From Allobosea sp. (GTDB lineage Bacteria; Pseudomonadota; Alphaproteobacteria; Rhizobiales; Beijerinckiaceae): DNA of 64,000 nt. The notes under the pieces are model-generated. The model had not been told where the DNA came from. It saw nothing but the letters and a program-made list of their open reading frames with translations, and ran no database searches. The number at the start of each line of letters is the position of its first letter. The first letter of the stretch is position 1. Where the stretch lies: NCBI RefSeq assembly GCF_030695125.1, contig NZ_JAUYTP010000036.1:62001-126000 (forward strand), given 5' to 3'. Below, piece after piece: positions 39,881 through 60,913 of this stretch. The translations under genes were made by a program, and so were the position numbers.

Positions 39881-40017
39881 TTCTCCCTCCCCCCGCTTGC
39901 GGTGGGGAGGGCCGGGGTGGGGGGCAGTGCCGCTCGGCGAGGCGAGCAAGGACAGAGCTTTGGTTTTGCGGCCCCCCATCCCTAACCCTTCCCCACCGCA
40001 AGCGGGGGGAAGGGGAT
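39881..40017. repeat. Palindromic intergenic repeat, C/G-rich family
   Basis: The gap of about 245 bp between the HerA-like gene and trpG holds an inverted repeat. The left arm (CCCTCCCCCCGCTTGCGGTG and following) is matched by a near-perfect complement at 39987-40015 (ACCGCAAGCGGGGGGAAGGG). The arms are about 30 bp and can form a large cruciform or hairpin. The form resembles dispersed palindromic repeats seen in many Hyphomicrobiales genomes. There is no gene or transposase in it. Confidence 0.75.
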
Positions 40018-40024
40018 GAAGGCC

Positions 40025-42844: not shown

Positions 42845-43504
42845 ATGACCCGCCGCGCCCGCATCCTCGTGATCAACCCCAACTCGAACGAGGCCGTGAC
42901 GGAGGGGCTCCGCCAGGCGGTGCTGCCGCTCTCTTATGCCGAAGGGCCCGAGATCGTCTGCGAGACGCTGACCGAGGGGCCCTTCGGCGTCGAGACGCAG
43001 GAGCATGTCGATGGCGTCGCGATTCCCCTGCGCCGCAAGATCGAGGCGGCCAACGATGTCGATGCGTTCGTCATCGCCTGCTATTCCGATCCCGGCCTGC
43101 ATGTCGCCCGCGAGGGCACGACGAGCCCGGTCTTCGGCATCGCCGAGAGCGGCGTCCTGACCGCGCTCGCCCGGGCCGACCGCTTCGGCGTGATCGCGAT
43201 CAAGTCGCGCTCGATCCCGCGCCATATCCGCTATCTCCGCCAGATGGGGCTGATGGACCGCCTCGCCGGCGAGCGCCCGCTGGAGATGTCGGTCGCCGAG
43301 ACCGCCTCGGGCGACCGCACGCTGGAGCGCATGATCGCGATTGGTCGCGAATTGAAGGAGATCGACGGCGCCGGCGCCATCGTCATGGGCTGCGCCGGAA
43401 TGGCCCGCCACCGTCGCCCGCTGGAGCAGGAACTCGGCATCCCCGTCATCGACCCGACCCAGGCGGCGGTGACGATGGCGCTTGGGACGCTGGCGGTGCG
43501 GTAG
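42845..43504 (+). CDS. Aspartate/glutamate/hydantoin racemase family protein
   Basis: A 219-aa cofactor-independent racemase fold. It starts ARILVINPNSNEAVTEGLRQ, as hydantoin racemases do. The two catalytic cysteines are Cys79 (FVIACYSDPGL) and Cys183 (VMGCAGM). Substrate could be a 5-substituted hydantoin, allantoin or an acidic amino acid. It may be read with the ceramidase-like gene. Amidohydrolase and binding-protein genes 3-6 kb away would fit a nitrogen-heterocycle theme, but they are separate units. Confidence 0.85.
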   Translation: MTRRARILVINPNSNEAVTEGLRQAVLPLSYAEGPEIVCETLTEGPFGVETQEHVDGVAIPLRRKIEAANDVDAFVIACYSDPGLHVAREGTTSPVFGIAESGVLTALARADRFGVIAIKSRSIPRHIRYLRQMGLMDRLAGERPLEMSVAETASGDRTLERMIAIGRELKEIDGAGAIVMGCAGMARHRRPLEQELGIPVIDPTQAAVTMALGTLAVR

Positions 43505-43527
43505 AGCGCGCTCTGCCGCCCACCACC

Positions 43528-43617
43528 TCATCCCGGCTTGCCCCGGGATCCATCGTCAAGCTCCGGGGCCCTGCGAGATCCCGGGTCAGCGCCGCATGCT
43601 CGGATTGTCCGGGATGA
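43528..43617. repeat. Palindromic repeat, TCATCCCGG family (intergenic copy)
   Basis: A 90-bp element bounded by perfect 9-bp inverted ends, TCATCCCGG and CCGGGATGA, with an inner CCCCGGGATCCAT and a later GATCCCGGG. It fills the gap between the racemase and ABC exporter genes. The same ends and inner CGGGATCCAT recur in the repeat inside imuC (55048-55152), so they belong to one family. Confidence 0.8.
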
Positions 43618-43660
43618 CGCGGTGGTTCCGTGCCGTCCATGCCTGCTCTAGAAAGTCGCC

Positions 43661-45406: not shown

Positions 45407-45411
45407 GGCAG

Positions 45412-45432
45412 CGGCCATCGTCACGATGGCCG
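45412..45432 (+). terminator. Hairpin after the ABC exporter
   Basis: CGGCCATCG-TCA-CGATGGCCG, a perfect 9-bp stem five bases after the stop, with no T run. It covers an in-frame ATG (45426) of the next reading frame, which argues against translation starting there. Confidence 0.45.
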
Positions 45433-45527
45433 TCATCGAAGCTGACGCACGGAACCTGTCTGGCAAGGTGGGGTTGAGCCAGGACGGAGCGGCCGAGATG
45501 GCCAGCCAGGCTCGGGAGACCATCGAC

Positions 45528-45920
45528 ATGCTGCGTGCCGGAACTGCCGCCCTGGCGATGTTTGCCCTTCTGATCGGTCCGACCCTCGGTCTGGCGCAGG
45601 GCGTCGGAACGCCCGGCACCGGGCCGCTCGTGCCGGGCGGTCCGCGCCAGGGGCTGGGGCCACCCTCGCTCTCGGATTCGGTGCCGGATCTCCGCCTCCG
45701 GTCGAGTGGCGGCGGAATCCCGGGCGCCGGCCCGCCGATCGATTATGGAAGGCCTCCATCCTCAGGCGCGAGTGGCTATGGTCTTGAGAGCCGCCCGCGC
45801 GTTCAAGCCGTCGGGCGGTTCTGCGAAACCCCGCGCACCACCTGCCGGCTCGGTCGTACGGCCCTGCTCGGCCAGCCCTGCTCCTGCCGCGGCCGCGGAC
45901 GGGGCGTCGTCGTTCGCTAG
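45528..45920 (+). CDS. Small secreted Cys-containing protein, hypothetical
   Basis: A 130-aa protein. ATG 45528 is chosen because GGGAG lies nine bases upstream and it gives a clean signal peptide (MLRAGTAALAMFALLIGPTL, cleaved after GLAQ). The mature part is Gly/Pro-rich and disordered, then ends in a compact cysteine motif, FCETPRTTCRLGRTALLGQP followed by CSCRGRGRG (four Cys). Similar C-terminal motifs occur in small secreted proteins of Hyphomicrobiales, as far as I recall; no function is known. Longer starts at 45426 or 45498 are less likely. It converges on the amidohydrolase gene with a gap of 12 bp. Confidence 0.7.
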   Translation: MLRAGTAALAMFALLIGPTLGLAQGVGTPGTGPLVPGGPRQGLGPPSLSDSVPDLRLRSSGGGIPGAGPPIDYGRPPSSGASGYGLESRPRVQAVGRFCETPRTTCRLGRTALLGQPCSCRGRGRGVVVR

Positions 45921-45932
45921 CCGAGCGCCGCC

Positions 45933-47234
45933 TCAGCCTGCGACGGCTCGCAACGCGGCGCGCGGCTGGCTTGGGGCGTGCAGCTGCGCCGCCGGCCGCG
46001 AAAAGCTCTGCCGCCCGTTCTTGAAGCCCATGATCGGCTCGGCCAGGCCCGCCAGCGCCTCGGCCTGCGTCGGGGCGTCGAGCACGATCAGGTCGGCCGG
46101 GTTGCCGATGGCGATGCCGTAATCCCTGAGGTTCATCAACCGCGCCGGCAGCGCCGTCACGAGGTCGATGCAGGCATCGAAGCCCTCCGGGCCGACCTGC
46201 GCGACATTGGCGTAGAAATTCGCCATTCGCAGCAGCGAGGCATCGCCGAAGGGGGTGAACGGGTTGAGGACATTGTTGGTCGCCACCGAGCAGGTCACGC
46301 CTTGCGCCAACAGCCGGTGCGCCGGCGTCAGCCCGCGCGGCACGTCATGGGTCGCCTCCCGGCCGAGCAGATAGACGTCGGTCGCGGGCAGGACCGTCAC
46401 CGCGACGCCCGCTTTCGCCAGCCGCTCGGCGGCTCGCATAAAAGCTTCGGGCGGCAGCGAGGACAGCTTGGTGACATGCCCGATCGCGACGCGCCCGCCA
46501 TAGCCATGGACGGTCGTCTGGCGGCAGACCTCGTCGAGATGCATCCAGCTCGCATCGAGATCGAAATCCAAATGGAAGTCGAGATCGACATCGAAGCGCG
46601 TCGCCAGCGCAAACAGCCGGGCGATCTGCGCGTGCGGGTCGGTGTCGGTATAGGGGCAGCCGCCGAGCGCGTCCGCCCCGTCCTGCAGGGCCCGGACCAG
46701 CAGTTCCTCGGTGCCGGGGTCGTTGGTCAGCCCCTCCTGTGGAAAGACGCACAGCGACAGGTCGATCGCCCAGGCATAATCGCGCTTCAGCGCCTTCAGC
46801 GCCTCGAAGCTGCGCAGGCCCACGCGCGGATCGACCTCGACATGGCTGCGCATGCGTGTCGTGCCCTTGGCGATCGCCCGCTCCAGAACCTGCGCGCCGC
46901 GCTCATAGACATCAGCCGTCGTGAAATCGCGCTTCATCGCCGAGACGGCGGCGATTGCAGCCTTCAGCCCGCCCTGCAGATGCCCGCAGCGCCCGAGCAG
47001 GCAGGCCTTGTCGAGATGGACATGGCTGTCGACGAAGCCCGGCAGCACGGCGCGGCCGCCCACCACAACCTCGGGTGCATCCGCCGCGATGACCGGCGCG
47101 ATGGCGGCGAAGCGCCCCCGCCGGACGCCGATGTCGACGGGCCTCGTCCCGCCGGGAAGAGTCGCCTGCCGGAAGATGAGGTCGAAGGCGCTGTCGTCGG
47201 GCATCGGCACGGAGCTGTTGGGTCGGAGATTCAA
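45933..47234 (-). CDS. Amidohydrolase superfamily protein (cytosine deaminase-like, atypical active site)
   Basis: A 433-aa TIM-barrel protein of the cytosine-deaminase branch. Metal-binding HxH is at His71/His73 (DSHVHLDKACLLG), with further His at 221 (DFHLDFDLD) and 253 (IGHVTKLSSL). Compared with E. coli CodA by eye, the catalytic Glu after the third His is Phe224, and the metal Asp of GHDDV is replaced by Asn (TNNVLNPFTP, 320-321). It may therefore do a different reaction or none. The start is TTG 47234 or ATG 47204; neither has a good ribosome-binding site. The gntR gene ends 6 bp upstream, and a TGTATGCA site overlaps that end. Confidence 0.8.
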   Translation of the reverse strand: MNLRPNSSVPMPDDSAFDLIFRQATLPGGTRPVDIGVRRGRFAAIAPVIAADAPEVVVGGRAVLPGFVDSHVHLDKACLLGRCGHLQGGLKAAIAAVSAMKRDFTTADVYERGAQVLERAIAKGTTRMRSHVEVDPRVGLRSFEALKALKRDYAWAIDLSLCVFPQEGLTNDPGTEELLVRALQDGADALGGCPYTDTDPHAQIARLFALATRFDVDLDFHLDFDLDASWMHLDEVCRQTTVHGYGGRVAIGHVTKLSSLPPEAFMRAAERLAKAGVAVTVLPATDVYLLGREATHDVPRGLTPAHRLLAQGVTCSVATNNVLNPFTPFGDASLLRMANFYANVAQVGPEGFDACIDLVTALPARLMNLRDYGIAIGNPADLIVLDAPTQAEALAGLAEPIMGFKNGRQSFSRPAAQLHAPSQPRAALRAVAG

Positions 47235-47240
47235 CGGAGA

Positions 47241-48032
47241 CTAAACTGTATGCACTTTACATGCCGGTTGCCGCCTGTGAAGGCGGCGATCGCGCGCAGT
47301 AGCCCGGGCGGGGAGGCTGTCAGCCGGCGGCTCGGCATAGGGCGCCAGGATGTCCATGATGTCGCGCCCGCGCGGCCGTGTCTGGGCGACCAATGCGCGG
47401 CTCGCCACCGAATCGAGATGGTGGTGCATCAGCGACATCACGGCGTCGGCATCGCCCTTGGCGAGCGCGTCGATCAGCAGCCGGTGCTCGTTGATGGCGC
47501 ATTCGGAGGAATGCGGGCGGCTGAACAGCGACAGCGTCAGACAGCAGCGATAGGCGATCTCGCTGACATAGCGGATCAGGATCGGGCTCTCCGTCATGCT
47601 GGCGAGCAGGATGTGGAACTCGGTCGCGAGGCGGATCGAGATCGCGTCGGGGCCGTTGCGCGCCTCGTCCTCGGCATCGACATGGGCATGGAGCTCGGCG
47701 ATCTGCGTCTTGGTCAGTCGTCCCGCCAGTTGCCGCACGACCAGCCGCTCGAGCTCGATGCGGATGTCAAAGGCGTCCCGCGCCTCCTGCCAGCTCGGCG
47801 TTGCCACCACGGCGATGCGGTTGCGGCGCAGCTCGACCAGCCCCTCGGCGGCGAGCTGACCCAGCGCATGACGCGCGATCGTGCGGCTGACGCCGAAGCG
47901 CTCGCCGAGCGCGTCCTCCGGCAGCTTGGCCCCGGGCTCCAGCGCCTGCTCGATGATGGCGCGGCGCAATGCGCGGCAGATCGTCCCGACCCGGTCCGTC
48001 GCAGGGCGGCTGCGGTTGTCCTCGCGCGTCAT
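47241..48032 (-). CDS. GntR family regulator, FCD subfamily
   Basis: A 263-aa regulator. The winged helix is at the N-terminus (LPEDALGERFGVSRTIARHA, then LGQLAAEGLVELRR). The FCD effector domain has the expected metal residues: DIRIELE, EFHILLASM, NEHRLLIDAL and HHHLDSV. The last 30 residues are a basic tail unlike the family, and the final codons are themselves part of a likely operator. ATG 48032 is chosen; a GTG precedes it. It lies 6 bp before the amidohydrolase gene (probable operon) and is divergent from the NMT1-type binding protein. Shared TGYATGCA sites at both ends of the gene suggest autoregulation and control of both sides. Confidence 0.9.
   Translation of the reverse strand: MTREDNRSRPATDRVGTICRALRRAIIEQALEPGAKLPEDALGERFGVSRTIARHALGQLAAEGLVELRRNRIAVVATPSWQEARDAFDIRIELERLVVRQLAGRLTKTQIAELHAHVDAEDEARNGPDAISIRLATEFHILLASMTESPILIRYVSEIAYRCCLTLSLFSRPHSSECAINEHRLLIDALAKGDADAVMSLMHHHLDSVASRALVAQTRPRGRDIMDILAPYAEPPADSLPARATARDRRLHRRQPACKVHTV
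47247..47261. promoter_or_regulatory. Probable GntR operator before the amidohydrolase gene
   Basis: TGTATGCACTTTACA overlaps the last codons of gntR, 13 bp upstream of the amidohydrolase start. It has TGTA/TACA ends seven bases apart and shares the core TG[T/C]ATGCACTTT with a site in the gap upstream of the binding-protein gene. On the minus strand a weak -24/-12-like GGCAT-N5-GTGCA also overlaps it. Confidence 0.5.
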
Positions 48033-48145
48033 CACCGAAATCCGAATGCGTGAGACCCCGTCTTAGCCCCGAGGCCGGGGTGGCCGCAATCCGCGGCTGC
48101 AATCGCCGGGAGGCGAGGGAGGGGCCGTGCCGGGGCGAGGTGGTA

Positions 48146-48161
48146 TGGCATCACTATTGCA
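48146..48161 (+). promoter_or_regulatory. Candidate sigma-54 promoter upstream of the NMT1-type binding protein
   Basis: TGGCAT-CACTA-TTGCA matches the -24/-12 consensus TGGCAC-N5-TTGCW with one change, and GG and GC are exactly 10 bp apart. It lies 199 bp before the start codon at 48360, which is a long leader. The -12 element runs into the TGCATGCA site. Confidence 0.5.
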
Positions 48162-48186
48162 TGCACTTTGATGATGATGGGCATGC
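48158..48186. promoter_or_regulatory. Probable GntR operator sites in the divergent gap
   Basis: TGCATGCA (48158-48165, a perfect palindrome, followed by CTTT) and a second GCATGC (48181-48186) lie in the 327-bp region between gntR and the binding-protein gene. The first shares 11 of 12 bases with the site at the gntR 3' end. Confidence 0.5.
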
Positions 48187-48256
48187 AGTCGAAGGGCCGC
48201 TCCCTTGGTTGCGACGCTTATGGCCGCCCGGGCTCCGCCAGTGCCCGCGATCGAGC

Positions 48257-48283
48257 GGTCGCAGGTCGCAGGTCGCAGGTCGC
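48257..48283. repeat. Short tandem repeat of GGTCGCA
   Basis: Nearly four copies of the heptamer GGTCGCA (the last is GGTCGCC) lie in the leader upstream of the binding-protein gene. The array could vary in copy number by slippage. Confidence 0.7.
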
Positions 48284-48359
48284 CGCTATCGTCGGCGAGG
48301 GAGCCCATGCGAGACGGTGCCGGAATGCTTGAATCAACGTCTCAGAAAAGGGGAACAAG

Positions 48360-49400
48360 ATGCTGAAAAGACTCTGCCTCGGTGCCGCTGCCGGCCTCGC
48401 GTTGGCCGGGCTGGCCTTCACCGGCGCCGTCCAGGCGCAGGAGACCGCGATCCGCTTCACCCTCGGCTGGAAGACGCAAGGCTCGGACGCCGCCTTCTTC
48501 GTCGCCCGCGACAAGGGCTACTACAAGGCCGAGGGGCTGAACGTCATCATCGACCAGGGCGAGGGCTCGGGCGCGACCGTCACCCGCATCATGGGCGGCG
48601 CCTATGATGCCGGCTTCGGCGACGTCAATGCCATCATCCAGAACGCCGCGACCAAGCCGGGCGAGAACCCGGTCATGGTCTACATGATCTGGAACCGCCC
48701 GCCCTTCGCGATCTCCAGCAAGAAGGCGACCGGCATCACCAAACCGAAGGATCTCGAAGGCAGGACGCTGGGCGGCGCCCCCGGCACTCCGACGACCCGC
48801 CTGCTCGAGGTCTTCGCCCGCAAGAACGGGCTCGACATGGGCAAGATCAAGCTCACCAGCATGGCGCCCAACCTGCAGGAGCCGCTGCTGATCAAGGGCG
48901 ACATCGACGGCGCGCTGGTCTTCAACATCACCAGCTATTTCAACCTGCTGCTGAACCGCCAGGACCCGGAGAAGGACTTCAACTGGCTCACCTTCGGCGA
49001 TTTCGGGCTCGATCTCTATTCCAACGGGCTGATGGTCTCGCAGAAGCTGATCAAGGAGAACCCCAAGGCCGTCGCCGGCCTCGTGCGCGCCACCAACAAG
49101 GCGATGCTGGAGATCGCCAAGGACCAGGCCGTCGGCATGAAGGCGGTGATGGCCTATGACGCCCTCGTCAACGAGGCGATCGAGAAGAAGCGCCTGCAAT
49201 ACTCCTTCAGCGAGCTCATCGTCTCGCCGGAGATGAAGGAGATCGGCGTCGGCGACACCAAGGACGCCCGCATGGCCAGCGCCATCGGCATCATCGCCGA
49301 AGGCTACCAGCTCGCCCGCACGCCCAAGCCCGAGGAGATCTTCTCCCGCGCCTTCCTGCCGCCCAAGGCCGAGCGCGAGCTGGTCTATACGGCGAATTGA
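48360..49400 (+). CDS. NMT1/THI5-like ABC transporter substrate-binding protein
   Basis: A 346-aa periplasmic protein with a signal peptide (AAAGLALAGLAFTGAVQAQE). The fold signature is IRFTLGWKTQGSDAAFFVAR, then DKGYYKAEGLNVIIDQGEGS and GGAPGTPTTRLLEVF, which is the SsuA/THI5 class that binds pyrimidine precursors, sulfonates, nitrate-like or aromatic ligands. ATG 48360 lies behind AGGGGAAC. No permease or ATPase gene is adjacent, so it must share a transporter encoded elsewhere. Promoter elements suggest sigma-54 plus GntR control. A hairpin terminator follows. Confidence 0.92.
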   Translation: MLKRLCLGAAAGLALAGLAFTGAVQAQETAIRFTLGWKTQGSDAAFFVARDKGYYKAEGLNVIIDQGEGSGATVTRIMGGAYDAGFGDVNAIIQNAATKPGENPVMVYMIWNRPPFAISSKKATGITKPKDLEGRTLGGAPGTPTTRLLEVFARKNGLDMGKIKLTSMAPNLQEPLLIKGDIDGALVFNITSYFNLLLNRQDPEKDFNWLTFGDFGLDLYSNGLMVSQKLIKENPKAVAGLVRATNKAMLEIAKDQAVGMKAVMAYDALVNEAIEKKRLQYSFSELIVSPEMKEIGVGDTKDARMASAIGIIAEGYQLARTPKPEEIFSRAFLPPKAERELVYTAN

Positions 49401-49410
49401 TCGCACGGAC

Positions 49411-49449
49411 AGGACACCGGATGGCCCTGCCGATCCGGTGTCCTCTTTG
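49411..49449 (+). terminator. Terminator after the NMT1-type binding protein
   Basis: A 12-bp perfect stem (AGGACACCGGAT / ATCCGGTGTCCT) with a 10-nt loop, followed by CTTTG, 10 bp after the stop. It separates this gene from the toxin-antitoxin pair. Confidence 0.7.
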
Positions 49450-49452
49450 ATG

Positions 49453-49480
49453 ATGGCAGTTGATGCCATTTGATGCCATT
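49453..49480. promoter_or_regulatory. Likely ParD operator: inverted and direct repeats
   Basis: ATGGCA-GTTGA-TGCCAT (49453-49469) is an inverted repeat, and the decamer TGATGCCATT is repeated in tandem at 49461-49470 and 49471-49480. It lies 21 bp before the antitoxin start. Such arrays are typical operators for ribbon-helix-helix antitoxins, so the pair probably represses itself. Confidence 0.55.
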
Positions 49481-49501
49481 CTCTTCCGCGGAGGACAGAT
49501 G

Positions 49502-49753
49502 ATGGCATCGATGAATATCTCTCTGCCCGACCCGATGCGGGACTGGGTCCAGCGTCGCATCGACGACGGTCACTACGCCAGCGCGAGCGATTACGTGCGC
49601 GACCTCATCCGCCATGACCAGGAGCAGGCGCGCCAGCTTTCAGTCGAGGATATTCGTCGGTCCATTGCCGAAAGCCGGGAGAGCGCAGCGACCAGTTCCG
49701 CCGATGCGGTGTTCGACCGGCTCGAAGCCCGGCTGAAGGCGATGGTCGAGTAG
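49502..49753 (+). CDS. parD: ParD-like antitoxin (type II toxin-antitoxin)
   Basis: An 83-aa protein with an N-terminal ribbon-helix-helix DNA-binding segment (MNISLPDPMRDWVQRRIDDG, then HYASASDYVRDLIRHD), and a helical C-terminal toxin-binding tail. The start is placed at ATG 49502, with GGAGG seven bases before the preferred spacing; ATGs at 49499 and 49511 are near-equal choices. Its stop codon directly abuts the toxin start, a coupled arrangement. Confidence 0.9.
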   Translation: MASMNISLPDPMRDWVQRRIDDGHYASASDYVRDLIRHDQEQARQLSVEDIRRSIAESRESAATSSADAVFDRLEARLKAMVE

Positions 49754-50047
49754 GTGTCCCGGACCTGCCGCTTCGCGCTGTCCGCGGAGAAGGATCTCGA
49801 AGAGATCGCGCTGTTCATCGCCTCGGACAGCCCCCGGCGCGCCCTGTCCTTCGTCGCGGAACTGCGGGCCCATTGCACCAGGATCGCCGATCAGCCGGAA
49901 GCCTATCCGCTGCGCGAGGAGTACGGCGTGGGCGTCCGGATCACCGTCCATGGCCGCTATCTGATTTTCCATGCGATCCGTGACGACGCTCTCGTCATCG
50001 AGCGCATCCTGCATGGCGCACGACATCTGGACTGGGTGCGACTTTAG
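49754..50047 (+). CDS. parE: ParE/RelE-family toxin
   Basis: A 97-aa toxin starting at GTG 49754, immediately after the antitoxin TAG. ParE features are LSAEKDLEEIALFIASDSPR, FVAELRAHCTRIADQPEAYP and the C-terminal RYLIFHAIRDDALVIERILH followed by GARHLDW. ParE toxins poison DNA gyrase, RelE relatives cut mRNA; the GARHLDW ending fits ParE. It lies 104 bp upstream of the SOS-controlled imuA gene but is a separate unit. Confidence 0.9.
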   Translation: MSRTCRFALSAEKDLEEIALFIASDSPRRALSFVAELRAHCTRIADQPEAYPLREEYGVGVRITVHGRYLIFHAIRDDALVIERILHGARHLDWVRL

Positions 50048-50126
50048 GCACGGGGTACAGCCGGCTGCCTGGCTTCCCTTTGAGTCAACTCCGACTCGCC
50101 TTTCCGCCAGGGCTCGTTCTATAAAA

Positions 50127-50141
50127 GAACAAATATAGAAC
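50127..50141 (+). promoter_or_regulatory. LexA (SOS) box of the imuABC operon
   Basis: GAAC-AAATATA-GAAC, a perfect alphaproteobacterial LexA site, 10 bp before the imuA ATG. A TATAAA at 50120-50125 just before it could be the -10 box, so LexA would sit over the transcription start. No good -35 box is visible. Confidence 0.9.
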
Positions 50142-50151
50142 ATGAGCCCGC

Positions 50152-51039
50152 ATGCAGCCTCGCCCGGACCCCGCTTCCCTGACCGATCTGCGCCGCCATC
50201 TCGCCGAGATGGCGCTGCGCGGCGCGCCTGCGGCGGTGGGGCAGGTGAGTTTCGGCGCGCCCGCCCTCGATGCGGCGCTGGGCGGCGGCATCGCCCGCGC
50301 GGCCCTGCACGAGGTCTATGCGCCCGCCACGGCCGATCTCGCGGCGGCAACGGGATTCGCCGTCGGCCTCGCCATCCGGGCCGCGGCCGGGCGCCCGATC
50401 CTCTGGGTGCGGCAGGATGTCGTCGATGCCGAGACCGGCCGGCTGCATCCGCCGGGGCTGACCGAACTCGGGCTCGATCCCGCCCGCGTCCTGCTGGTGC
50501 GGGCGCGCGATGCCGAGGGCGTGCTCCGCGCCGGCGCCGAGGCCGCCCGCTGCCCGGCGCTGGGGGCGGTGCTGATCGAGCCCTGGGGCGCGCCGCGGCG
50601 CCTCGATCTGACCGCGAGCCGGCGCCTGGCCCTGGCGGCGGAAGGCTCGGGCGCGACCACGCTTTTGCTGCGCGCCGCCGTGGCGCCGCAGCCGAGCGCG
50701 GCCTCGACCCGCTGGCAGGTCGCGTCCCTGCCGTCGCGGGCGCTGGAGGCGAATGCACCGGGAGCGCCCGCCTTCAGCCTCAAATTGCTGCGGCATCGCG
50801 GGGGGCTGGGTGAGTCCGAGTGGCGTGTGGAGTGGAGCCGTGACCGACAATCTTTCCAGGAGAGCCCTGTCCAGAGCGACGTCCGAAACCGTCAGGCCGC
50901 TGCCGGCCGCGACGAGCCCCTCCGTTCCCCCAGAGCCAGCCCCGATGCCACGCCGCTATCTCGCCCTGTGGTTCCCTTTCCTGCCGACCGACCGGCTGCG
51001 GCGGGAGGGCCGGGTCCCGACATCCGGCGTACCGGCTGA
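50152..51039 (+). CDS. imuA: ImuA, RecA-like mutasome accessory protein
   Basis: A 295-aa RecA-fold protein that, with ImuB and ImuC, forms the DNA-damage-induced mutasome. It has the family pattern LRRHLAEMALRGAPAAVGQV, GAPALDAALGGGIARAALHE and PILWVRQDVVDAETGRLHPP. A true Walker A lysine is absent, as usual for ImuA. The C-terminal tail (PLSRPVVPFPADRPAA) is family-like. The gene overlaps imuB by 95 bp in another frame. It is controlled by the LexA box just upstream. Confidence 0.93.
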   Translation: MQPRPDPASLTDLRRHLAEMALRGAPAAVGQVSFGAPALDAALGGGIARAALHEVYAPATADLAAATGFAVGLAIRAAAGRPILWVRQDVVDAETGRLHPPGLTELGLDPARVLLVRARDAEGVLRAGAEAARCPALGAVLIEPWGAPRRLDLTASRRLALAAEGSGATTLLLRAAVAPQPSAASTRWQVASLPSRALEANAPGAPAFSLKLLRHRGGLGESEWRVEWSRDRQSFQESPVQSDVRNRQAAAGRDEPLRSPRASPDATPLSRPVVPFPADRPAAAGGPGPDIRRTG

Positions 51040-52489
51040 CGCCCCGCTGGTCGTCTATGCCCATCGCGGCAACGCGCTTCGCCTCGTCGCGGGGGACGAC
51101 CGGGCTCTGACGCTGGGGCTGGCGCGGGACCTGACCCTGGCCGATGCGCGCGCGCGCATTCCCGGGCTGATCGCGATCGAGGCCGAGCCCGAGGCCGACG
51201 AGGCCCTCTTGATGCGGCTCGCCGCCTTCTGCGATCGCTTCACCCCGCTGGTCGCGCTCGATCGCCCCCAGGGCCTGCTGCTCGACATCACCGGCTGCGC
51301 CCATCTCTTCGGCGGGGAGGGCGCGCTGCTGGCGACGCTCGGCCGCTGGATGCAGCGCGGCGGCCTCGCGCTCCGCTCGGCCGTCGCGGGCACGCCGGAA
51401 GCCGCCCATGCGCTGGCGCGCTTCGGCCGGGGCGCAATCGTGCCGCCCGGGCAGGACGAGGCCTGGCTGCGTCCGCTGCCGGTCGCGGCACTCGAGCTTC
51501 CTCCTGAGACCGCGCTCGCCTTGACCCGGGCGGGCCTGAGGACGCTGGCCGATCTCGCCGAGCGCCCCTCCAAGGGGCTGTCGGCCCGCTTCGGCGAGGA
51601 TCTGGTGACGCGGCTGCGGCGCACGCTCGGCCATGAGGATGCCCGCCTCACGCCGCTGCGCCCGCCGCCGGCCTGCCTGGTCGAGCGCCATTTCGCCGAG
51701 CCGATGCTCGATCTCGACGGGCTGCAGGAGGTCGTCGCCCGGCTGATCGCGGAGGCCGCGCGGGTGCTGGAACAGCGCGGCGAGGGCGGGCGCGTCTTCG
51801 AACTCGGCTTCCATCGCAGCGACGGGGCGGTGCGGCGGCTGGTGATCGAGACCGGGCGCCCGACGCGCGACGGCAAGGCCATCCTGCGGCTCTGGCGCGA
51901 GCGCGTCGAGAGCCTCTCCGACCCGCTCGATCCCGGTTTCGGTTTCGATGCGGTGCGCCTTGCCGTGCCGGTCTGCGAGCCGCTGAGCGAAACCCAGCCG
52001 AGCCTCGACCGCCGCGCCGTCGAGGACGAGGCCGTGGCCGATCTCGTCGACCGGCTGGTCGTGCGCTTCGGCCGCGACCGGGTGCTGCGCTTCGTGGCGC
52101 AGGACAGCCACCATCCCGTGCGCGCGGCGAAGGCCCGCTCGGCCGCGCTGCCGCCGGCCGGCATCGCCTGGCCGGCCCCCATTCCGCATGAACCGCCGAC
52201 ACGCCCGCTCCAGATCTTCGAGCCGCCCCAGCCGGTGGAGGCCATCGCCGAGGTGCCCGACGGCCCGCCGATCCGCTTCCGCTGGCGCCGGCTCATCCAT
52301 GATGTCGCCCGCGCCGAGGGCCCGGAGCGGATCGCGCCGGAATGGTGGCGCGACGGCTCCAGCGAGCCGATGCGCGACTATTACCGTGTCGAGGACTCGG
52401 CAGGCCGCCGCTTCTGGCTCTTCCGCATCGGCTTCCATGAGCCGGAGCAGGCGCCGCCGCGCTGGTTCCTGCATGGGCTGTTTGCATGA
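50945..52489 (+). CDS. imuB: ImuB, Y-family polymerase-like protein
   Basis: A 514-aa member of the Y-family polymerase fold that lacks the catalytic acidic residues; it opens RRYLALWFPFLPTDRL where an active enzyme has its DxD motif. ImuB links ImuC to the beta clamp and ImuA. Also seen are DITGCAHLFGGEGALLATL and the little-finger region FELGFHRSDGAVRRLVIETG. ATG 50945 gives the known start and overlaps imuA by 95 bp; upstream in-frame codons lie inside imuA. Its stop overlaps imuC by 4 bp (ATGA). Confidence 0.93.
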   Translation: MPRRYLALWFPFLPTDRLRREGRVPTSGVPADAPLVVYAHRGNALRLVAGDDRALTLGLARDLTLADARARIPGLIAIEAEPEADEALLMRLAAFCDRFTPLVALDRPQGLLLDITGCAHLFGGEGALLATLGRWMQRGGLALRSAVAGTPEAAHALARFGRGAIVPPGQDEAWLRPLPVAALELPPETALALTRAGLRTLADLAERPSKGLSARFGEDLVTRLRRTLGHEDARLTPLRPPPACLVERHFAEPMLDLDGLQEVVARLIAEAARVLEQRGEGGRVFELGFHRSDGAVRRLVIETGRPTRDGKAILRLWRERVESLSDPLDPGFGFDAVRLAVPVCEPLSETQPSLDRRAVEDEAVADLVDRLVVRFGRDRVLRFVAQDSHHPVRAAKARSAALPPAGIAWPAPIPHEPPTRPLQIFEPPQPVEAIAEVPDGPPIRFRWRRLIHDVARAEGPERIAPEWWRDGSSEPMRDYYRVEDSAGRRFWLFRIGFHEPEQAPPRWFLHGLFA

Positions 52490-55400
52490 ATCAGGTCCTC
52501 AGCCCCTTCGCCGAACTCGTTGCCGCGACGAATTTTTCCTTCCTGCGCGGCGCCTCGCCGGGGCCCAATCTGGTGCTCACCGCGCTGCTGCTCGGCCATG
52601 CGGGGCTCGGCCTCGCCGACCGCAACACGGTGGCGGGCGTGGTGCGGGCCTGGAGCGCGCTGCGGCAGCTGCGCGAGGACGGGCTGCCCCCGGCCGAGAA
52701 GCTGAAGGAGGGCGACAGCCCCGGCGAGCATGTCTGGATCGAAAACCCCGCCTTCGCCGATCTGCCCTTCACCGCGGATCAGTTACGTTCCATGGCAAAG
52801 GACTTTCGGCTTGTCCTCGGCAGCCGGCTCGTCTTTGCCGACGGCACGCCCGACATCGTCGTCTACCCCGCCAACCGCAGCGGCTGGGGCAGACTCTGCC
52901 GCCTGCTCAGCGAGGGCAACCGGCGCGCCGGCAAGGGCGAGTGCATCCTGAACCTCGACGACCTCCTCAGCGATACCCGCGATCTCCTGCTGATCCTGAT
53001 GCCGCCGCGCGATCTCGCCGGTCTGCCTGCGCTGCTCGCCCGGCTGGACGAGGCCGCGCCCGGCTCGCTCTGGCTCAGCGCCAGCATGCACCGGCGCGGC
53101 GACGACCGCCGCCGGCTGGCGCGGCTGAAGGCGATCGCCGCCGCGACCCGCACCCCGCTGCTGGCGACCAACGACGTGCTCTACGATGCCCCCGAGCAGC
53201 GCGACCTGCAGGACGTGCTGACCTGTATCCGCGAGGGCGTCTCGATCGAGCGGGCGGGGCGCCTGCTCGAGGCCAATGCCGAGCGCCATCTCAAGACGCC
53301 CCAGGAGATGATCCGGCTCTTCCGCGATGCCCCCGAGGCGATCGCCGAGACGCGCCATCTCCTCGCCCGCATCGACTTCGATCTCGGCCAGCTCGAATAC
53401 GAATATCCCGACGAGCCCGTCCCGCCCGGCTGGAGCGACCAGGCCTGGCTTGTGGAACTGGTGCGCCGCTGCTGCGTCATCCGCTATCCGAACGGGGTGC
53501 CGGAGAAGGTCGAGGCCTTGCTGCGCAAGGAGCTCGATTTGATCGCGGGGCTGAACTACGCCCGCTACTTCCTCACCATCCATCAGATCGTCGAATTCGC
53601 CGTCAGCCGCGGCATCCTCTGCCAGGGCCGGGGTTCGGCCGCCAATTCCGCCGTCTGCTATGTGCTCGGCATCACCGCGGTCGACCCCACCGAGAGCGAC
53701 GTGCTGTTCGAGCGCTTCATCTCGACGCAGCGCCGCGAGCCGCCCGATATCGATGTCGATTTCGAGCATGAGCGGCGCGAGGAGGTGATCCAGTGGATCT
53801 ATGAGCGCTATGGCCGCCACCGCGCCGGCATCGTCGCAACCGTCATCCGCTACCGCCCGCGCAGCGCCATCCGGGATGTCGGCAAGGCGCTGGGGCTGAC
53901 CGAGGACGTCACCGCCCGCATCGCCGGCACGCAATGGGGCAGCTGGGGCACGGAGATCGGCGACGACCGCGTCCGCCAGGCCGGGCTCGACCCCGCCAAC
54001 CCCACGATCCGCCGCGCGGTCGATTTCGCCATCCGCCTGCTCGGCTTCCCGCGCCATCTCTCGCAGCATGTCGGCGGCTTCGTGCTGGCGCGCGGGCGCC
54101 TCGACGAGATGGTGCCGGTCGGCAATGCCGCGATGGCGGACCGCACCTTCATCGAATGGGACAAGGACGACATCGACGAACTGCGCCTGATGAAGGTCGA
54201 TGTGCTCGCGCTGGGCATGCTGACCTGCATCCGCAAGGCCTTCGACCTGCTGCGGCAGCATGAGGGCCTCGAGATGGGGCTAGCCGACATCCCCAGGGAC
54301 GACGGGCCGACCTACGACATGCTCTGCCGGGGCCAGTCGCTCGGCGTCTTCCAGGTCGAGAGCCGGGCGCAGATGAACATGCTGCCGCGCCTGAAGCCGC
54401 GCATCCTCTACGACCTCGTCATCCAGGTCGCGATCGTCCGCCCCGGCCCGATCCAGGGCGACATGGTCCACCCCTATCTGCGGCGCCGCGCCGGGATCGA
54501 GCCGGTACATTATCCCGCGCCGGCCCCGGAGCACGGGCCCGCCGACGAGCTCTTCCAGGTGCTGAACAAGACCAAGGGCGTGCCGCTCTTCCAGGAGCAG
54601 GCGATGAAGCTCGCCATGGTCGCCGCGAAATTCACAGACAGCGAGGCGAATGGCCTGCGTAAGGCGATGGCGACCTTCCGCAGTGACGGCAGCATCGGCA
54701 ACTATCAGGACATGATGGTCGAGCGGATGGTGGCGCGCGGCTATGAGCGCGATTTCGCCCAGCGCTGCTTCGACCAGATCAAGGGCTTCGGCAGCTACGG
54801 CTTCCCCGAAAGCCACGCCGCCTCCTTCGCCAAGCTGGTCTACATCTCCTCCTGGCTGAAATGCCATCACCCGGCGGCCTTCGCCTGCGCGCTGTTGAAC
54901 GCGCAGCCCATGGGCTTCTATGCCCCCGCCCAGATCGTGCGCGAGGCGCAGGAGGTCGGCGGCGTCGAGCCACGCGCGATCGATGTGAATTTCAGTTTCT
55001 GGGACAATGGGTTGGAGCGTGTCGATCACGTTGAAAAGGGAAGCGCCGTCATCCCGGGCGACCGCAGGGAGACCCGGGATCCATTCCGGAACTTCTCCGA
55101 TAAAGGCTCCGGAATGGATCCCGGATCTCCGCTTCGCTCCGTCCGGGATGACCGGGGAGGGTCTTCGGAAACTCCCAGCCCTCATCCTGAGGAGCCGCGC
55201 AGCGGCGTCTCGAAGGATGGTCCAGATGCCTCGGGAGCCTCTCCGGCCATCCTTCGAGACGCGCCTGCGGCGCTCCTCAGGATGAGGGCTGAGGGGGGCG
55301 GGAAGCGACGGAGCCCCTTCGCCCTGCGCCTCGGCTTCCGCCAGATCGACGGATTCCGCGAGGAATGGGGCCTGCGCATCGCGGCGCGGCGGGGCGGGGG

Positions 55401-56133
55401 CTACGCCGATGTCGAGGAGTTGATGCGCCGGGCCGATCTGCCGGGCCGCGCCATGCGGCTGCTCGCCGATGCCGACGCCTTCCGCTCGCTCGGGCTCGAC
55501 CGCCGCGAGGCGCTCTGGGCCGTGCGCCGCCTGCCGGACGACGAGGCCCTGCCGCTCTTCGCCGCCGCCCAGGCCCGCGAACTGGGCGAGGAGCCGGCCG
55601 TCCCGCTGCCGATCATGCCGCTGCCGCAGCAGATCGTCGCCGACTACCAGACGGTCCGGCTCTCGCTGAAGGGCCACCCGATGGGAATGCTGCGGCCGCT
55701 CTTCCGGCGCGACCGCGTGCTGAGCTGCGCCGAGCTCGAAGGCCGCCCCGACGGCAGTTGGGCCGCGACCGCCGGCGTCGTGTTGGTCCGCCAGCGCCCC
55801 GGCAATGGCAAGGCGATCTTCATCACGCTGGAGGACGAGACCGGCATCGCCAACATCCTGCTCTGGGCGCGCCTGTTCGAGCGCTTCCGGCGCGAGGTGA
55901 TGAGCGGGCGCCTGCTGCAGATCGAGGGAAGGGTGCAGAAGAGCCCCGAAGGCGTGGTCCATCTGATGGCCCAGCGCGTCGTCGACCGCACGGCCGATCT
56001 CGCGAGCCTGTCCGAGAGCCACAGCGCCACGATCACCCTGACGCGGGCGGACGAGTTCAAGCATCCCCAGGCCCCGCGCGGCCGTCACCCCCGCGACGTT
56101 CGGATCCTGCCGAAATCCCGGGATTTCCATTGA
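52486..56133 (+). CDS. imuC: Error-prone DNA polymerase ImuC/DnaE2, with in-frame repeat insertion
   Basis: A 1215-aa C-family polymerase for damage-induced mutagenesis. It has the PHP domain (AELVAATNFSFLRGASPGPN), the catalytic motif PDIDVDF at residues 420-426 (Asp 421, 423, 425), SHAASFAKLVYISSWLKCHH, and the C-terminal OB-fold (ITLEDETGIANILLWARLFE). It is about 100 residues longer than usual DnaE2 (about 1080-1100). The extra part lies between FWDNGLE and LRLGFRQIDGF, just before the helix-hairpin-helix module, and is encoded by two palindromic repeats (55048-55290, residues about 855-935). The frame stays open through both. ATG 52486 overlaps the imuB stop. Confidence 0.94.
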   Translation: MNQVLSPFAELVAATNFSFLRGASPGPNLVLTALLLGHAGLGLADRNTVAGVVRAWSALRQLREDGLPPAEKLKEGDSPGEHVWIENPAFADLPFTADQLRSMAKDFRLVLGSRLVFADGTPDIVVYPANRSGWGRLCRLLSEGNRRAGKGECILNLDDLLSDTRDLLLILMPPRDLAGLPALLARLDEAAPGSLWLSASMHRRGDDRRRLARLKAIAAATRTPLLATNDVLYDAPEQRDLQDVLTCIREGVSIERAGRLLEANAERHLKTPQEMIRLFRDAPEAIAETRHLLARIDFDLGQLEYEYPDEPVPPGWSDQAWLVELVRRCCVIRYPNGVPEKVEALLRKELDLIAGLNYARYFLTIHQIVEFAVSRGILCQGRGSAANSAVCYVLGITAVDPTESDVLFERFISTQRREPPDIDVDFEHERREEVIQWIYERYGRHRAGIVATVIRYRPRSAIRDVGKALGLTEDVTARIAGTQWGSWGTEIGDDRVRQAGLDPANPTIRRAVDFAIRLLGFPRHLSQHVGGFVLARGRLDEMVPVGNAAMADRTFIEWDKDDIDELRLMKVDVLALGMLTCIRKAFDLLRQHEGLEMGLADIPRDDGPTYDMLCRGQSLGVFQVESRAQMNMLPRLKPRILYDLVIQVAIVRPGPIQGDMVHPYLRRRAGIEPVHYPAPAPEHGPADELFQVLNKTKGVPLFQEQAMKLAMVAAKFTDSEANGLRKAMATFRSDGSIGNYQDMMVERMVARGYERDFAQRCFDQIKGFGSYGFPESHAASFAKLVYISSWLKCHHPAAFACALLNAQPMGFYAPAQIVREAQEVGGVEPRAIDVNFSFWDNGLERVDHVEKGSAVIPGDRRETRDPFRNFSDKGSGMDPGSPLRSVRDDRGGSSETPSPHPEEPRSGVSKDGPDASGASPAILRDAPAALLRMRAEGGGKRRSPFALRLGFRQIDGFREEWGLRIAARRGGGYADVEELMRRADLPGRAMRLLADADAFRSLGLDRREALWAVRRLPDDEALPLFAAAQARELGEEPAVPLPIMPLPQQIVADYQTVRLSLKGHPMGMLRPLFRRDRVLSCAELEGRPDGSWAATAGVVLVRQRPGNGKAIFITLEDETGIANILLWARLFERFRREVMSGRLLQIEGRVQKSPEGVVHLMAQRVVDRTADLASLSESHSATITLTRADEFKHPQAPRGRHPRDVRILPKSRDFH
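55048..55152. repeat. Palindromic repeat, TCATCCCGG family, inside imuC
   Basis: A 105-bp element with perfect 10-bp inverted ends GTCATCCCGG / CCGGGATGAC and an inner perfect 16-bp arm pair, CGGGATCCATTCCGGA / TCCGGAATGGATCCCG. The ends and the inner CGGGATCCAT match the intergenic copy at 43528-43617. At 105 bp it keeps the imuC frame (35 codons). Confidence 0.88.
55177..55290. repeat. Second palindromic repeat inside imuC, CCTCATCCTGAGGAG family
   Basis: A 114-bp element whose ends AGCCCTCATCCTGAGGAGC and GCTCCTCAGGATGAGGGCT are perfect 19-bp inverted repeats. Inner arms CGTCTCGAAGGATGG / CCATCCTTCGAGACG are also perfect. It is unrelated to the first repeat and lies 24 bp after it. At 38 codons it keeps frame. 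Confidence 0.88.
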
Positions 56134-56265
56134 TTGCCGCAATGGTAGTCAATTCGCCTGTTTCATGAGCAAAATAGGGGCCGCGTATGCGGGCCGTCGC
56201 CTCCTGTTCAATCCGGATGCAGGCGCGAGGGGCGCGCTGCCGCCGGCCAAACCGGGGGCGGCCCT

Positions 56266-56282
56266 CTGGCATGCCCGTTGCT
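56266..56282 (+). promoter_or_regulatory. Sigma-54 promoter upstream of the first family-5 binding protein
   Basis: CTGGCATGCCCGTTGCT matches YTGGCACGRNNNTTGCW at nearly all positions, with GG and GC exactly 10 bp apart. The start codon is 54 bp downstream. It implies activation by an NtrC-type enhancer protein. Confidence 0.7.
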
Positions 56283-56335
56283 AACCTCGTGCCGCCGCTC
56301 GCAGGAGCGCGCGGCCAACCACAGGGGAGAAAAAC

Positions 56336-57988
56336 GTGTCCGTATCCAGCTTCACCCGCTCGGCCCTTCTCGGCCTCGGCCTTTCGACGGCGCTCGTCAC
56401 CGGCGCGCTCGCCCAGGAGAAGGTCCTGCGCATCGGCATGACGGCAGCGGACATTCCGCGGACCCACGGCCAGCCCGACCAGGGCTTCGAGGGCAACCGC
56501 TTCACCGGCATCCCGATGTATGACGCGCTGACCCATTGGGATCTCTCCTCCGCCGAGAAGGCGAGCGTCGTCATCCCCGGCCTGGCCACCGAATGGGCGG
56601 TCGACGCCACCGACAAGACGAAGTGGACCTTCAAGCTGCGTCCGGGCGTCAAGTTCCAGGACGGCTCCGATTTCACCGCCGCCGCCGTCGTCTGGAACGT
56701 CGACAAGGTCCTCAACAAGGAAGCCGCGCATTTCGCGCCGGACCAGATCGGCGTCACCGTCTCGCGCATGCCGACGCTGCGCAGCGCCCGCGCGATCGAC
56801 CCGCTCACCGTCGAGCTGACCACGAGCGAGCCCGACGCCTTCCTGCCGATCAACCTGACCAATCTGTTCATGGCGTCCCCGGCGCACTGGGCTGCCAAGC
56901 TCGCCGCCGTCCCGGCCTCGGTCACCGATCCGGCCGAGCGCGCCAAGCAGGCCTGGGCGGCCTTCTCGGCCGATCCGTCCGGCACAGGCCCGTTCAAGGG
57001 CGTCAGGCTGTCGCCGCGCGAGCGTTTCGAGATGGTCGCCAACAAGGCCTATTGGGACCCCAAGCGCGTGCCGAAGATCGACCGTGTCGTGCTGCTGCCG
57101 CTGCCGGAGGCCAATGCCCGCACCGCGGCCCTGCTCTCGGGCCAGGTGGACTGGATCGAGTCGCCTTCGCCGGACGCCGTGCCGCAGATCAAGCAGCGCG
57201 GTTTCACCGTCTACACCAACGCCCAGCCGCATGTCTGGCCCTGGCAGCTCTCCTTCGTCGAGGGCTCGCCCTGGGTCGACAAGCGCGTCCGCCACGCCGC
57301 CAATCTCTGCATCAACCGCGAGGAGCTGAAGACGCTGCTCGGCGGGCTGATGGAGATCCCGAAGGGCACCGTTCCCCCCGGCCATCCCTGGTGGGGCAAC
57401 CCCAGCTTCGACATCAAATACGATCTCGCGGCGGCCAAGAAGCTGATGACGGAAGCCGGCTATTCGACCGCCAAGCCGGCGAAGGTGAAGGTGCTGACCT
57501 CGGCCTCGGGTTCGGGCCAGATGCAGCCCCTGCCGATGAACGAGTTCATGCAGCAGGCGCTGAAGGAGTGCTTCTTCGACGTCGCGCTCGAGGTCGGCGA
57601 ATGGAACGCCGTCTTCACCAACTGGCGCGAGGGCGCCAAGCACGCCAACGCCCGCGGCGCCAACGCCACCAACGTCACCTTCGCGGCGATGGACCCGTTC
57701 TTCGCCATGGTGCGCTTCACCTCGACCAAGACCTTCCCGCCGGTCTCCAACAACTGGGGCTATTTCGGCAATGACGAGTTCGACAAGCTCATCGCCGACG
57801 CCCGCACCAGCTTCGACGGGACGGCGCGCGATGCGGCGCTCGCCAAGCTCCATGCCCGCATCGTCGAGGAAGCGCCCTTCGTCTGGGTGGCCCATGACGT
57901 CGGCCCGCGCGCGATGAGCGCCAAGGTCAAGGGCGTCGTCCAGCCGAAGAGCTGGTTCATCGACCTCGCTCCGATGTCGATGGACTGA
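56336..57988 (+). CDS. ABC transporter substrate-binding protein, family 5 (peptide/nickel type), copy 1
   Basis: A 550-aa periplasmic protein. It starts at GTG 56336 behind GGGGAG, with a signal peptide ending TGALAQE. The family pattern is LRIGMTAADIPRTHGQPDQG, then TKWTFKLRPGVKFQDGSDFT and the ligand-domain motif SGTGPFKGVRLSPRERFEMV. Ligand could be peptides, opines or other compounds; the family does not fix it. It is closely similar to the second copy at 58187. It is preceded by a sigma-54 promoter and followed by a palindromic repeat. Confidence 0.93.
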   Translation: MSVSSFTRSALLGLGLSTALVTGALAQEKVLRIGMTAADIPRTHGQPDQGFEGNRFTGIPMYDALTHWDLSSAEKASVVIPGLATEWAVDATDKTKWTFKLRPGVKFQDGSDFTAAAVVWNVDKVLNKEAAHFAPDQIGVTVSRMPTLRSARAIDPLTVELTTSEPDAFLPINLTNLFMASPAHWAAKLAAVPASVTDPAERAKQAWAAFSADPSGTGPFKGVRLSPRERFEMVANKAYWDPKRVPKIDRVVLLPLPEANARTAALLSGQVDWIESPSPDAVPQIKQRGFTVYTNAQPHVWPWQLSFVEGSPWVDKRVRHAANLCINREELKTLLGGLMEIPKGTVPPGHPWWGNPSFDIKYDLAAAKKLMTEAGYSTAKPAKVKVLTSASGSGQMQPLPMNEFMQQALKECFFDVALEVGEWNAVFTNWREGAKHANARGANATNVTFAAMDPFFAMVRFTSTKTFPPVSNNWGYFGNDEFDKLIADARTSFDGTARDAALAKLHARIVEEAPFVWVAHDVGPRAMSAKVKGVVQPKSWFIDLAPMSMD

Positions 57989-59785: not shown

Positions 59786-59813
59786 GGAAAAGAGTGCGCA
59801 GGCAACCCGACGC

Positions 59814-59947
59814 TGTCATTCCGGGGCATCGCGCAGCGATGAACCCGGAACCCACGACCGGGCGAGCCCTGATGGGTTCGCTTGATTCAAACGGGGTGCC
59901 CCGCCGTGGATTCCGGGTTCGCGGCTTTGCCGCGCCCCGGAATGACA
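59814..59947. repeat. Palindromic repeat, TGTCATTCCGGGGC family
   Basis: A 134-bp element with perfect 14-bp inverted ends (TGTCATTCCGGGGC / GCCCCGGAATGACA). Inner arms GAACCCGGAA / TTCCGGGTTC also pair. It lies between the second binding-protein gene and the first permease gene, 12 bp before the permease start, and may affect expression of the downstream genes by processing or read-through control. Confidence 0.8.
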
Positions 59948-59959
59948 GGTGAGGATCGC

Positions 59960-60913
59960 ATGCTGAAATACCTCGCCAAGCGCATCCTCTACGTGCTGCC
60001 TGTCGCCTTCGGCGTCAGCCTGTTCTGTTTCCTGCTGGTGCATATCGCGCCGGGCGACCCGCTGACCTCGGTGCTGCCGCCCGACGCCTCCCAGGCGATG
60101 CAGGACGAGCTGCGCAAGATCTACGGCTTCGACCGGCCGCTGCCGGTGCAGTTCGGCCTCTGGCTGCTGAAGGCGCTGCAGGGCGATCTCGGCACCTCGA
60201 TCGCGACGGGCCGTCCCGTCGCGGCCGAGGTCTGGCGCGCGGTGGGCAACACGCTGTTGATCGCCGGTCTCGCGACCGTCATCGGTTTCGTCTTCGGCTG
60301 CTTCTTCGGTTTCGTCGCTGGCTATTTCCGCGGCTCCTTCCTCGACAAGTTCGCCTCCATGCTGGCGGTGCTCGGCGTCTCCGTGCCGCATTACTGGCTG
60401 GGCATGGTGATGGTCATCGTGTTCTCGGTGCAGCTCGGCTGGCTGCCGCCGGGCGGGGCGGGGCCCGGCGGCTCGGCGGCGTGGAAATGGGACTGGGAGC
60501 ATGTCAGCTACATGATCCTGCCCGCCATCACGATGTCGGTGATCCCGATGGGCATCATCGCGCGCACCGTGCGGGCGCTGGTCGCCGACATCCTCAACCA
60601 GGAATTCGTGCCGGCGCTGCGGGCCAAGGGGCTGATGGATTTCGGTGTCTTCCGCCATGTCGTGAAGAACGCGGCGCCGACCGCGCTGGCCGTGATGGGC
60701 CTGCAGCTCGGTTATCTGCTGGGGGGATCGATCCTGATCGAGACCGTCTTCTCCTGGCCCGGCACCGGCTTCCTGCTCGGCAACGCCATCTTCCAGCGCG
60801 ACCTGCCGTTGCTCCAGGGCACCATCCTCGTGCTCGCCATGTTCTTCGTCGGGCTGAACGTCCTCGTCGATATCCTGCAGGGTCTGCTCGACCCGCGCGT
60901 CCGGAGGCGCTGA
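59960..60913 (+). CDS. ABC transporter permease, DppB type
   Basis: A 317-aa inner-membrane permease of the binding-protein-dependent type. It starts with a helix (LYVLPVAFGVSLFCFLLVHI), then APGDPLTSVLPPDASQAMQD, and contains the EAA-like cytoplasmic loop VPALRAKGLMDFGVFRHVVK. About six spans. ATG 59960 lies behind GAGGATC, immediately after the repeat. The second permease starts 1 bp after its stop. Confidence 0.94.
   Translation: MLKYLAKRILYVLPVAFGVSLFCFLLVHIAPGDPLTSVLPPDASQAMQDELRKIYGFDRPLPVQFGLWLLKALQGDLGTSIATGRPVAAEVWRAVGNTLLIAGLATVIGFVFGCFFGFVAGYFRGSFLDKFASMLAVLGVSVPHYWLGMVMVIVFSVQLGWLPPGGAGPGGSAAWKWDWEHVSYMILPAITMSVIPMGIIARTVRALVADILNQEFVPALRAKGLMDFGVFRHVVKNAAPTALAVMGLQLGYLLGGSILIETVFSWPGTGFLLGNAIFQRDLPLLQGTILVLAMFFVGLNVLVDILQGLLDPRVRRR

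Follow-up and report, generated by a model that had tools for sequence, protein, structure and literature searches.

It is unsettled whether a palindromic repeat within a protein is harmless or alters the protein that carries it, and in 2013 a survey pointed, in its accessible text, to repair genes as suspicious targets (Di Nocera et al., 2013; PMC3733652). The window analyzed here, a stretch of 64,000 nucleotides, raises the question at imuC, an error-prone DNA polymerase gene that contains two such repeats. The genus Bosea offers natural replicates that make this question testable: near-identical relatives differ in whether the loop is filled or empty, the repeats belong to several families, and a metabolic gene can serve as a control.

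The imuC Gene and Its Loop

The genome of the source strain (G000) is a draft of 5,129,228 bases in 87 contigs. Its imuC (dnaE2) gene was located at 52486–56133 on the plus strand and encoded an error-prone DNA polymerase of 1215 amino acids. The open reading frame contained no internal stop codon and remained open across both repeats, elements A and B, as the original prediction of an intact gene in frame through two palindromic repeats had stated. The protein matched NCBIfam PRK05672 over residues 5–1215 with 1368 bits, above the curated cut-off of 939 for ImuC/DnaE2 error-prone polymerases over the whole protein. Upstream on the same strand were an ImuA-like ORF at 50152–51039 (45.5 bits, under the 150-bit cut-off) and a Y-family polymerase-like ORF in the ImuB position at 50753–52489 (IMS_C, 24.1 bits, cut-off 20.7). 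A second, more divergent DnaE2-like gene (55–57% identity) was observed beside the main ImuC in several Bosea genomes (e.g., G015:C49, G025:C7, and G034:C55).

The expanded loop extends from FWDNGLE to FALRLGFRQ (55018–55317, plus strand); loop readings and BLASTN with a repeat library mark it as a probable recurrent docking site. The HHH_6 match began at residue 947, immediately C-terminal of the insert, and the insert thus lies just ahead of the helix-hairpin-helix module, where it had been placed. In the sequence profile, the site aligned with about residues 826–830 of E. coli PolIII-alpha (NDDGE; N826–E830), shortly N-terminal of the helix-hairpin-helix, and the loop may be a surface turn. 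The insert is in frame and presumably translated as a linker.

Elements A and B and Their Dispersed Relatives

Element A (55048–55152, plus strand, 105 bp) is an inverted pair of CGTC-tagged REP-like units, with the tag at 55047–55050, and element B (55176–55291, plus strand) is a palindromic repeat of the CCCTCATCCTGAGGAGC family with inverted-repeat arms. The outer arms of element A were 13 nt long and 92% complementary, and the inner arms were 23 nt long and 96% complementary; the arms of element B (55176–55220 and 55247–55291) were 45 nt long and 91% complementary. The inverted repeats had been described as perfect. Their palindromic nature was upheld, but the arms of element A are only nearly perfect. 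The DNA folding z-scores were −8.3 for element A and −10.5 for element B, with none of 200 shuffles as good, compared with +0.8 for a control stretch of imuC. Neither element is a chance palindrome.

Both elements were repeated in the source genome: BLASTN gave 81 matches when hits on either strand were counted and 40 of the 259 candidates had been scored. Translated searches gave 71 matches to an A peptide and 58 to a B peptide; because palindromes match both strands, the genomic places are fewer than these two counts. Two relatives of the loop repeats were found in the window itself. The copy at 43528–43617 (BLAST matches span 43528–43588), originally taken as intergenic kin of element A, is indeed a related CGTC-like repeat but represents a different subtype (E). 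The other, at 39870–40028, is a family F repeat with 42-nt arms that are 86% complementary. An inverted repeat with 66-nt arms, 73% complementary, was also noticed at 59798–59963. The Rfam scan of 43000–57000 returned only mir-3180 and sR-tMet matches, both of which were under their gathering scores and were taken as chance.

The coding context was tested by codon usage for 57 repeat matches of all families, taken from the window and from 33 stretches round the A and B copies with the best scores. Only the A copy in imuC and one A copy in cobN were marked as open in frame. The right flank of the imuC A copy scored low because element B follows, and the imuC B copy was left unmarked because its left flank is element A. 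The sampled copies were mostly outside genes, in agreement with the dispersed repeats originally proposed, and this intergenic place is inferred from codon usage, not from annotation. Long open frames often arise by chance in DNA as GC-rich as this, and the open-frame lengths of the translated matches were therefore disregarded in counting other in-frame genes.

Occupancy of the Loop across Bosea

Of the 67 genomes of the genus set, all but G073 gave a match in the search for imuC. The search served only to locate the gene, and the loop was then read in all 66 matching genomes. The tree and the repeat count leave out ten genomes of the genus (11 rows) whose DnaE2 is more divergent; their loops were read without a library scan. 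The tree comprised 57 rows and included the distant genus genomes G026, G030, and G033 and the other-family genome G046, none of which is among the 53 close-type loci.

Palindromic repeats were detected by BLASTN with the repeat library at the loop in 28 of these 53 loci, with 37 elements of seven families or subtypes; the other 25 loci had no library repeat there. The insert is thus not a feature of one strain, as had been supposed. Family C (AACCCTCTCCCGGAGGG type) was found in 11 loops, family B (CCCTCATCCTGAGGAGC type) in six, family D (GGCAATCGGCAGTCGG type) in four, and family F (CCCTCCCCCCGC type) in three (G077, G019, and G090). Family A, the CGTC-like inverted pair, occurred in 10 loops; three of them carried it reversed, and some held only a half or a fragment. 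Family E, a second CGTC-like type akin to A, was present in two loops (G006, and as a diverged unit in G083), and family G (TAGAGCAATTCCG type) in one, that of G002, which bore A, C, and G. One insert conserved across many genera had been named beforehand as the result that would speak against dispersed repeats; the loop peptides instead differed between the families, although family C was common to 11 of the 53 loci.

No library repeat was found in the rest of imuC in the 53 loci; the sequence scanned began after codon 147 in G031 and stopped short of the 3′ end of the gene in G015 and in G019. Eleven library matches lay outside imuC: eight past the stop codon, two upstream, one of which ended right at the start of the open frame, and one in G015 beyond its break. 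Because the repeat library was derived from the loops themselves, a library-free control was run on 50 loci (G015, G019, and G090 excluded); it is less sensitive and mostly misses element C. Perfect inverted repeats of at least 13 nt were detected in 16 of 50 loops, in 3 of 50 downstream 250-nt spacers and in none of 599 coding windows of 250 nt. Repeats were thus commoner in the loop than in the neighboring intergenic spacer. Tolerance by itself would not lead one to expect this excess, except where free sites are scarce or an early insert makes further insertion easier.

Four close ImuCs displayed four states: G000 had a full-length element A on the plus strand, G084 a minus-strand half, G031 a 33-nt minus-strand fragment, and G009, a relative 98% identical, no insert. 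The flanks of the loop showed a four-fold divergence of 11.8% between G000 and G031 and 16.3% between G000 and G084, while the first and second codon positions differed by 0.8–1.1% among these three genomes (0.9% for G000–G031 and 1.1% for G000–G084). This pattern is that of flanks under purifying selection.

Twenty-five of the 28 repeat-bearing loci were uninterrupted and in frame, one was out of frame and two were split at the repeat. In G090 (L097), the frame was lost within a repeat rich in single-base runs, which is either a real loss or a sequencing error. The contig end fell inside the repeat in G019 (L021, L107). In G015 (L019, L106), the frame passed through element C into other sequence and then met a stop, and the C-terminal part of ImuC opened another contig, which started inside a C copy. 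Repeats may break assemblies or genes in these three genomes, and the cases, together with the 87 contigs of the source draft, are what would be seen if the inserts were assembly artifacts or belonged to a pseudogene. However, in-frame inserts lay inside megabase contigs of G010 (5.47 Mb), G084 (5.01 Mb), and G078 (5.69 Mb), and the first and second codon positions were conserved, so an artifact or a pseudogene is hardly credible here.

Probable Exchange of the Loop and Evolution of Element C

The divergence between G000 and G083 was 0.09–0.27 in the upstream windows. At roughly 200 nt ahead of the loop it fell to 0.03–0.08 and stayed there over most of the 3′ part; in the last, short 3′ window it was 0.16. 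The B elements of the two genomes were 99.1% identical despite a four-fold divergence of 22% in the stretches compared. We read the low-divergence stretch as a putative recombination tract by which the loop passed from one lineage to another. The repeat types were scattered on the ImuC tree, with 24 changes over 57 rows compared with a shuffled mean of 26.7. Since recombination breaks the tree and inflates the count, these 24 changes were not used as a number of events.

The 11 copies of element C in ImuC shared one orientation and a length of 146 nt, and the best match of each was another ImuC copy. The mean identity was 0.836 among the ImuC copies and 0.772 and 0.804 to the dispersed copies of G010 and G024, respectively; the dispersed copies of G024 had an identity of 0.824 among themselves. 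The dispersed copies used were 28 of those found, from these two genomes only. In the orientation seen in ImuC, each frame was open in 4 of the 28, and in the other orientation two frames were open in 14 and 16 of them. The ImuC copies of element C appear to descend from a single insertion.

Here, the proposal that a single ancient insertion diversified by decay, with no recurrent docking, has to be weighed. The common orientation, length, and mutual best matches of element C resemble one lineage, and the left flanks of many A inserts were alike. Yet the loop held seven families or subtypes, of which only A and E are noted as related, and this number of unrelated families already contradicts one insertion; the repeat types were scattered on the tree, with the recombination-inflated count given above, and Sphingomonas has its own repeat at the loop. 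A single insertion is thus a very improbable source of the whole pattern.

The arms and the interior of element C evolved differently. In the 10-row divergence comparisons, from which the G015 copy was excluded, the interior diverged by 0.36, 0.315, and 0.312 at the three codon positions (32.9% overall), and this nearly equal divergence gives no sign of protein selection on the interior. The arms in ImuC diverged by 1.4%, third positions included, compared with about 30% at four-fold sites. The dispersed copies of the two genomes displayed the same contrast (arms 4.0–8.8%, interior 27–38%). The deviations of the ImuC arms comprised eight cells at four sites, with a synonymous to nonsynonymous ratio of 8:0, compared with 28:51 in the 28 dispersed copies. 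The cells are not independent, and this bias gave a Fisher p of 0.0005 with all copies and a non-significant p of 0.08 when the comparison was limited to the matched subtype (11 copies, 4:4). The pattern hints at some constraint on the arms, and their stability may come from DNA or RNA constraint, gene conversion, or peptide constraint.

The arms could accordingly be imagined to be kept for a DNA or RNA role, such as protein binding, hairpin formation, or recombination, or to be homogenized by gene conversion with the dispersed copies. The low arm divergence in ImuC and its recurrence among the dispersed copies favor this. Nevertheless, many genomes had no repeat at the loop, and the ImuC arms deviated only synonymously, which a pure DNA-level force does not require, although this bias was not significant with the matched subtype. 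We regard such a role or conversion as unlikely to explain the inserts.

A Second Gene, cobN, and Other Genera

The second gene with an element A copy open in frame, at L219:430–4005 on the minus strand of G000, is one that we take from its sequence to be cobN. All 60 cobN loop sequences, at two sites in 30 loci (L256–L285, the best 30 of 66 genomes with a match), were stop-free multiples of three. At site 2, all 30 loci carried a repeat, 22 recognized by the library and eight by eye through a further CGTC-like family (CGTCATTGCGAGC...); the families involved were A/E, B, F, or the CGTCATTGCGAG family. Perfect inverted repeats of at least 11 nt were detected at site 2 in 27 of 30 loci, at site 1 in 15 of 30, and in 2 of 330 downstream coding windows. 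The CobN loop thus behaves like the ImuC loop, and the pattern is not peculiar to a mutagenic protein. A bypass of the insert during translation, or its removal, was also considered and is disfavored: the frame was kept and stop-free in 25 of 25 intact ImuC loops and in all 60 CobN loops, and neither process would require the inserts to stay in frame and free of stops.

It has been speculated that such repeats tune mutators, and repair genes were prominent among REP-tagged genes (Di Nocera et al., 2013; PMC3733652, accessible text). In ImuC, the inserts might be adaptive by altering the activity of the polymerase or its contacts with partners or the clamp, and so tune induced mutagenesis. The loop was more occupied than the neighboring spacer, and the deviations of the C arms in ImuC were all synonymous, both of which point in this direction. 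On the other side, 25 of 53 close loci did without a library repeat, the near-identical G009 among them; unrelated families serve in the loop; the interior of element C showed no codon-position bias; and CobN, a metabolic enzyme, has the same pattern. As a control, CobN argues against a link to mutagenesis and, on the sequence comparison, weakens the tuned-mutator idea. An adaptive effect of this kind is improbable. The lack of codon-position bias and the likeness of the CobN loop favor the tolerated linker, the first of the two readings that the original prediction had offered; the second, an altered polymerase, gained no support.

Outside the genus, the length of the ImuC loop was nearly constant. 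Among the best 80 named ImuC loci (two Bosea, the rest Alphaproteobacteria by title), 66 had a loop of 42–51 residues; five others were missed by the pattern and proved short on reading, and nine were longer, the two Bosea included. Two Sphingomonas loci (L151 and L158) had a repeat of their own at the loop (about 3315–3500 in L151). Its ends recur in their genomes: with 40 candidates scored per genome and hits on either strand counted, 47 and 59 matches were obtained. The two inserts were 87% identical and may represent one event. The loop is thus used outside Bosea too. A hairpin-like expansion was also seen at the same loop (about 120–215) in a Sphingomonadales MAG (L188).

Taken together, these results lead us to conclude, with good but not full confidence, that two dispersed palindromes of the REP/RPE kind lie in frame in an extension-tolerant loop of ImuC, in which such repeats dock recurrently and act as a neutral linker. 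Repeats of which Bosea genomes hold tens to more than 100 matches per family would insert or be copied widely, and selection would purge nearly all of the intragenic insertions. The ImuC loop before the HhH domain could, in this mechanism, lengthen without functional loss, and a repeat would persist there if its length was a multiple of three and its frame was open. The persisting repeats would be translated as a linker and would drift, be trimmed, be lost, or be swapped by interspecies homologous recombination. The inserted peptide is most likely neutral. A bolder extension, which we consider doubtful, is that the ImuC loop and CobN site 2 are standing docking sites, where repeats are kept and swapped as interspecies cassettes and are partly exapted; the arm peptides would then be under protein-level selection, and the loop would be a variable module of the polymerase.

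Comparison with Known Repeat Systems

The REPs of the CGTC type are mainly alphaproteobacterial and have no associated transposase genes (Di Nocera et al., 2013; PMC3733652; here and below, in the accessible part of that paper). In element A, the CGTC tag was followed by an AT-starting stem (ATCCCGGG ... CCCGGGAT, by eye) within the 8–9 bp expected of CGTC REPs, the tail carried the CCA of these REPs (...CCCGGGATCCA), and the many dispersed copies were, by their inferred place, mostly intergenic. The loop between the stems was 14 nt in the window copy and 5 nt in the G085 copy (by eye); since the window copy is outside the usual 4–5 nt, element A is called CGTC-like and not a strict CGTC REP. 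Some CGTC REP families do have loops of other lengths (PMC3733652). Element A therefore shares with the published CGTC REPs the tag, the AT-starting 8-bp stem, the CCA tail, and the arrangement as an inverted pair, whereas families B, C, D, F, and G were not recognized as CGTC units by eye. No match to a Y1 transposase (Y1_Tnp; PF01797) was found in the G000 draft by a search that was positive in 5 of 14 control genomes, and no GTAG was seen by eye at the ends of elements A and B, so the two do not resemble the GTAG REPs mobilized by RAYT.

The Rickettsia palindromic elements, originally named as a parallel, are a fair one. As far as the accessible texts go, they are palindromes translated in frame in unrelated proteins (PMC10969869; PMC3733652); here, in-frame palindromes were found in ImuC and CobN. 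In addition, RPE-4 and RPE-6 are of the CGTC type (PMC3733652). Unlike Rickettsia, Bosea is not obligate intracellular, and several families occur at one site. The enterobacterial RU small mobile sequences (PMC2759123, accessible text) are likewise described as short intragenic repeats that hold ORFs; their families and hosts differ.

The closest precedent is again the survey of 2013, in which CGTC REPs are likewise mostly extragenic, some lie in frame in genes, and DnaE2 is among the tagged proteins, together with a REP in DnaE of R. conorii (PMC3733652). The survey also reported that two Xanthomonas species carry different REPs at nearly the same position in recB. Among the open-license papers listed for this topic, we found no account of the Bosea ImuC repeats, and the same ImuC loop may already be among the REP-tagged DnaE2 genes of that survey. 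The cases in its accessible text are scattered, whereas Bosea presents one loop with seven families or subtypes and a genus-wide record of presence, absence, exchange, and decay. REPs inside DnaE2 were thus known; what is new is the turnover of multiple families at one loop across a genus and a second gene that behaves alike.
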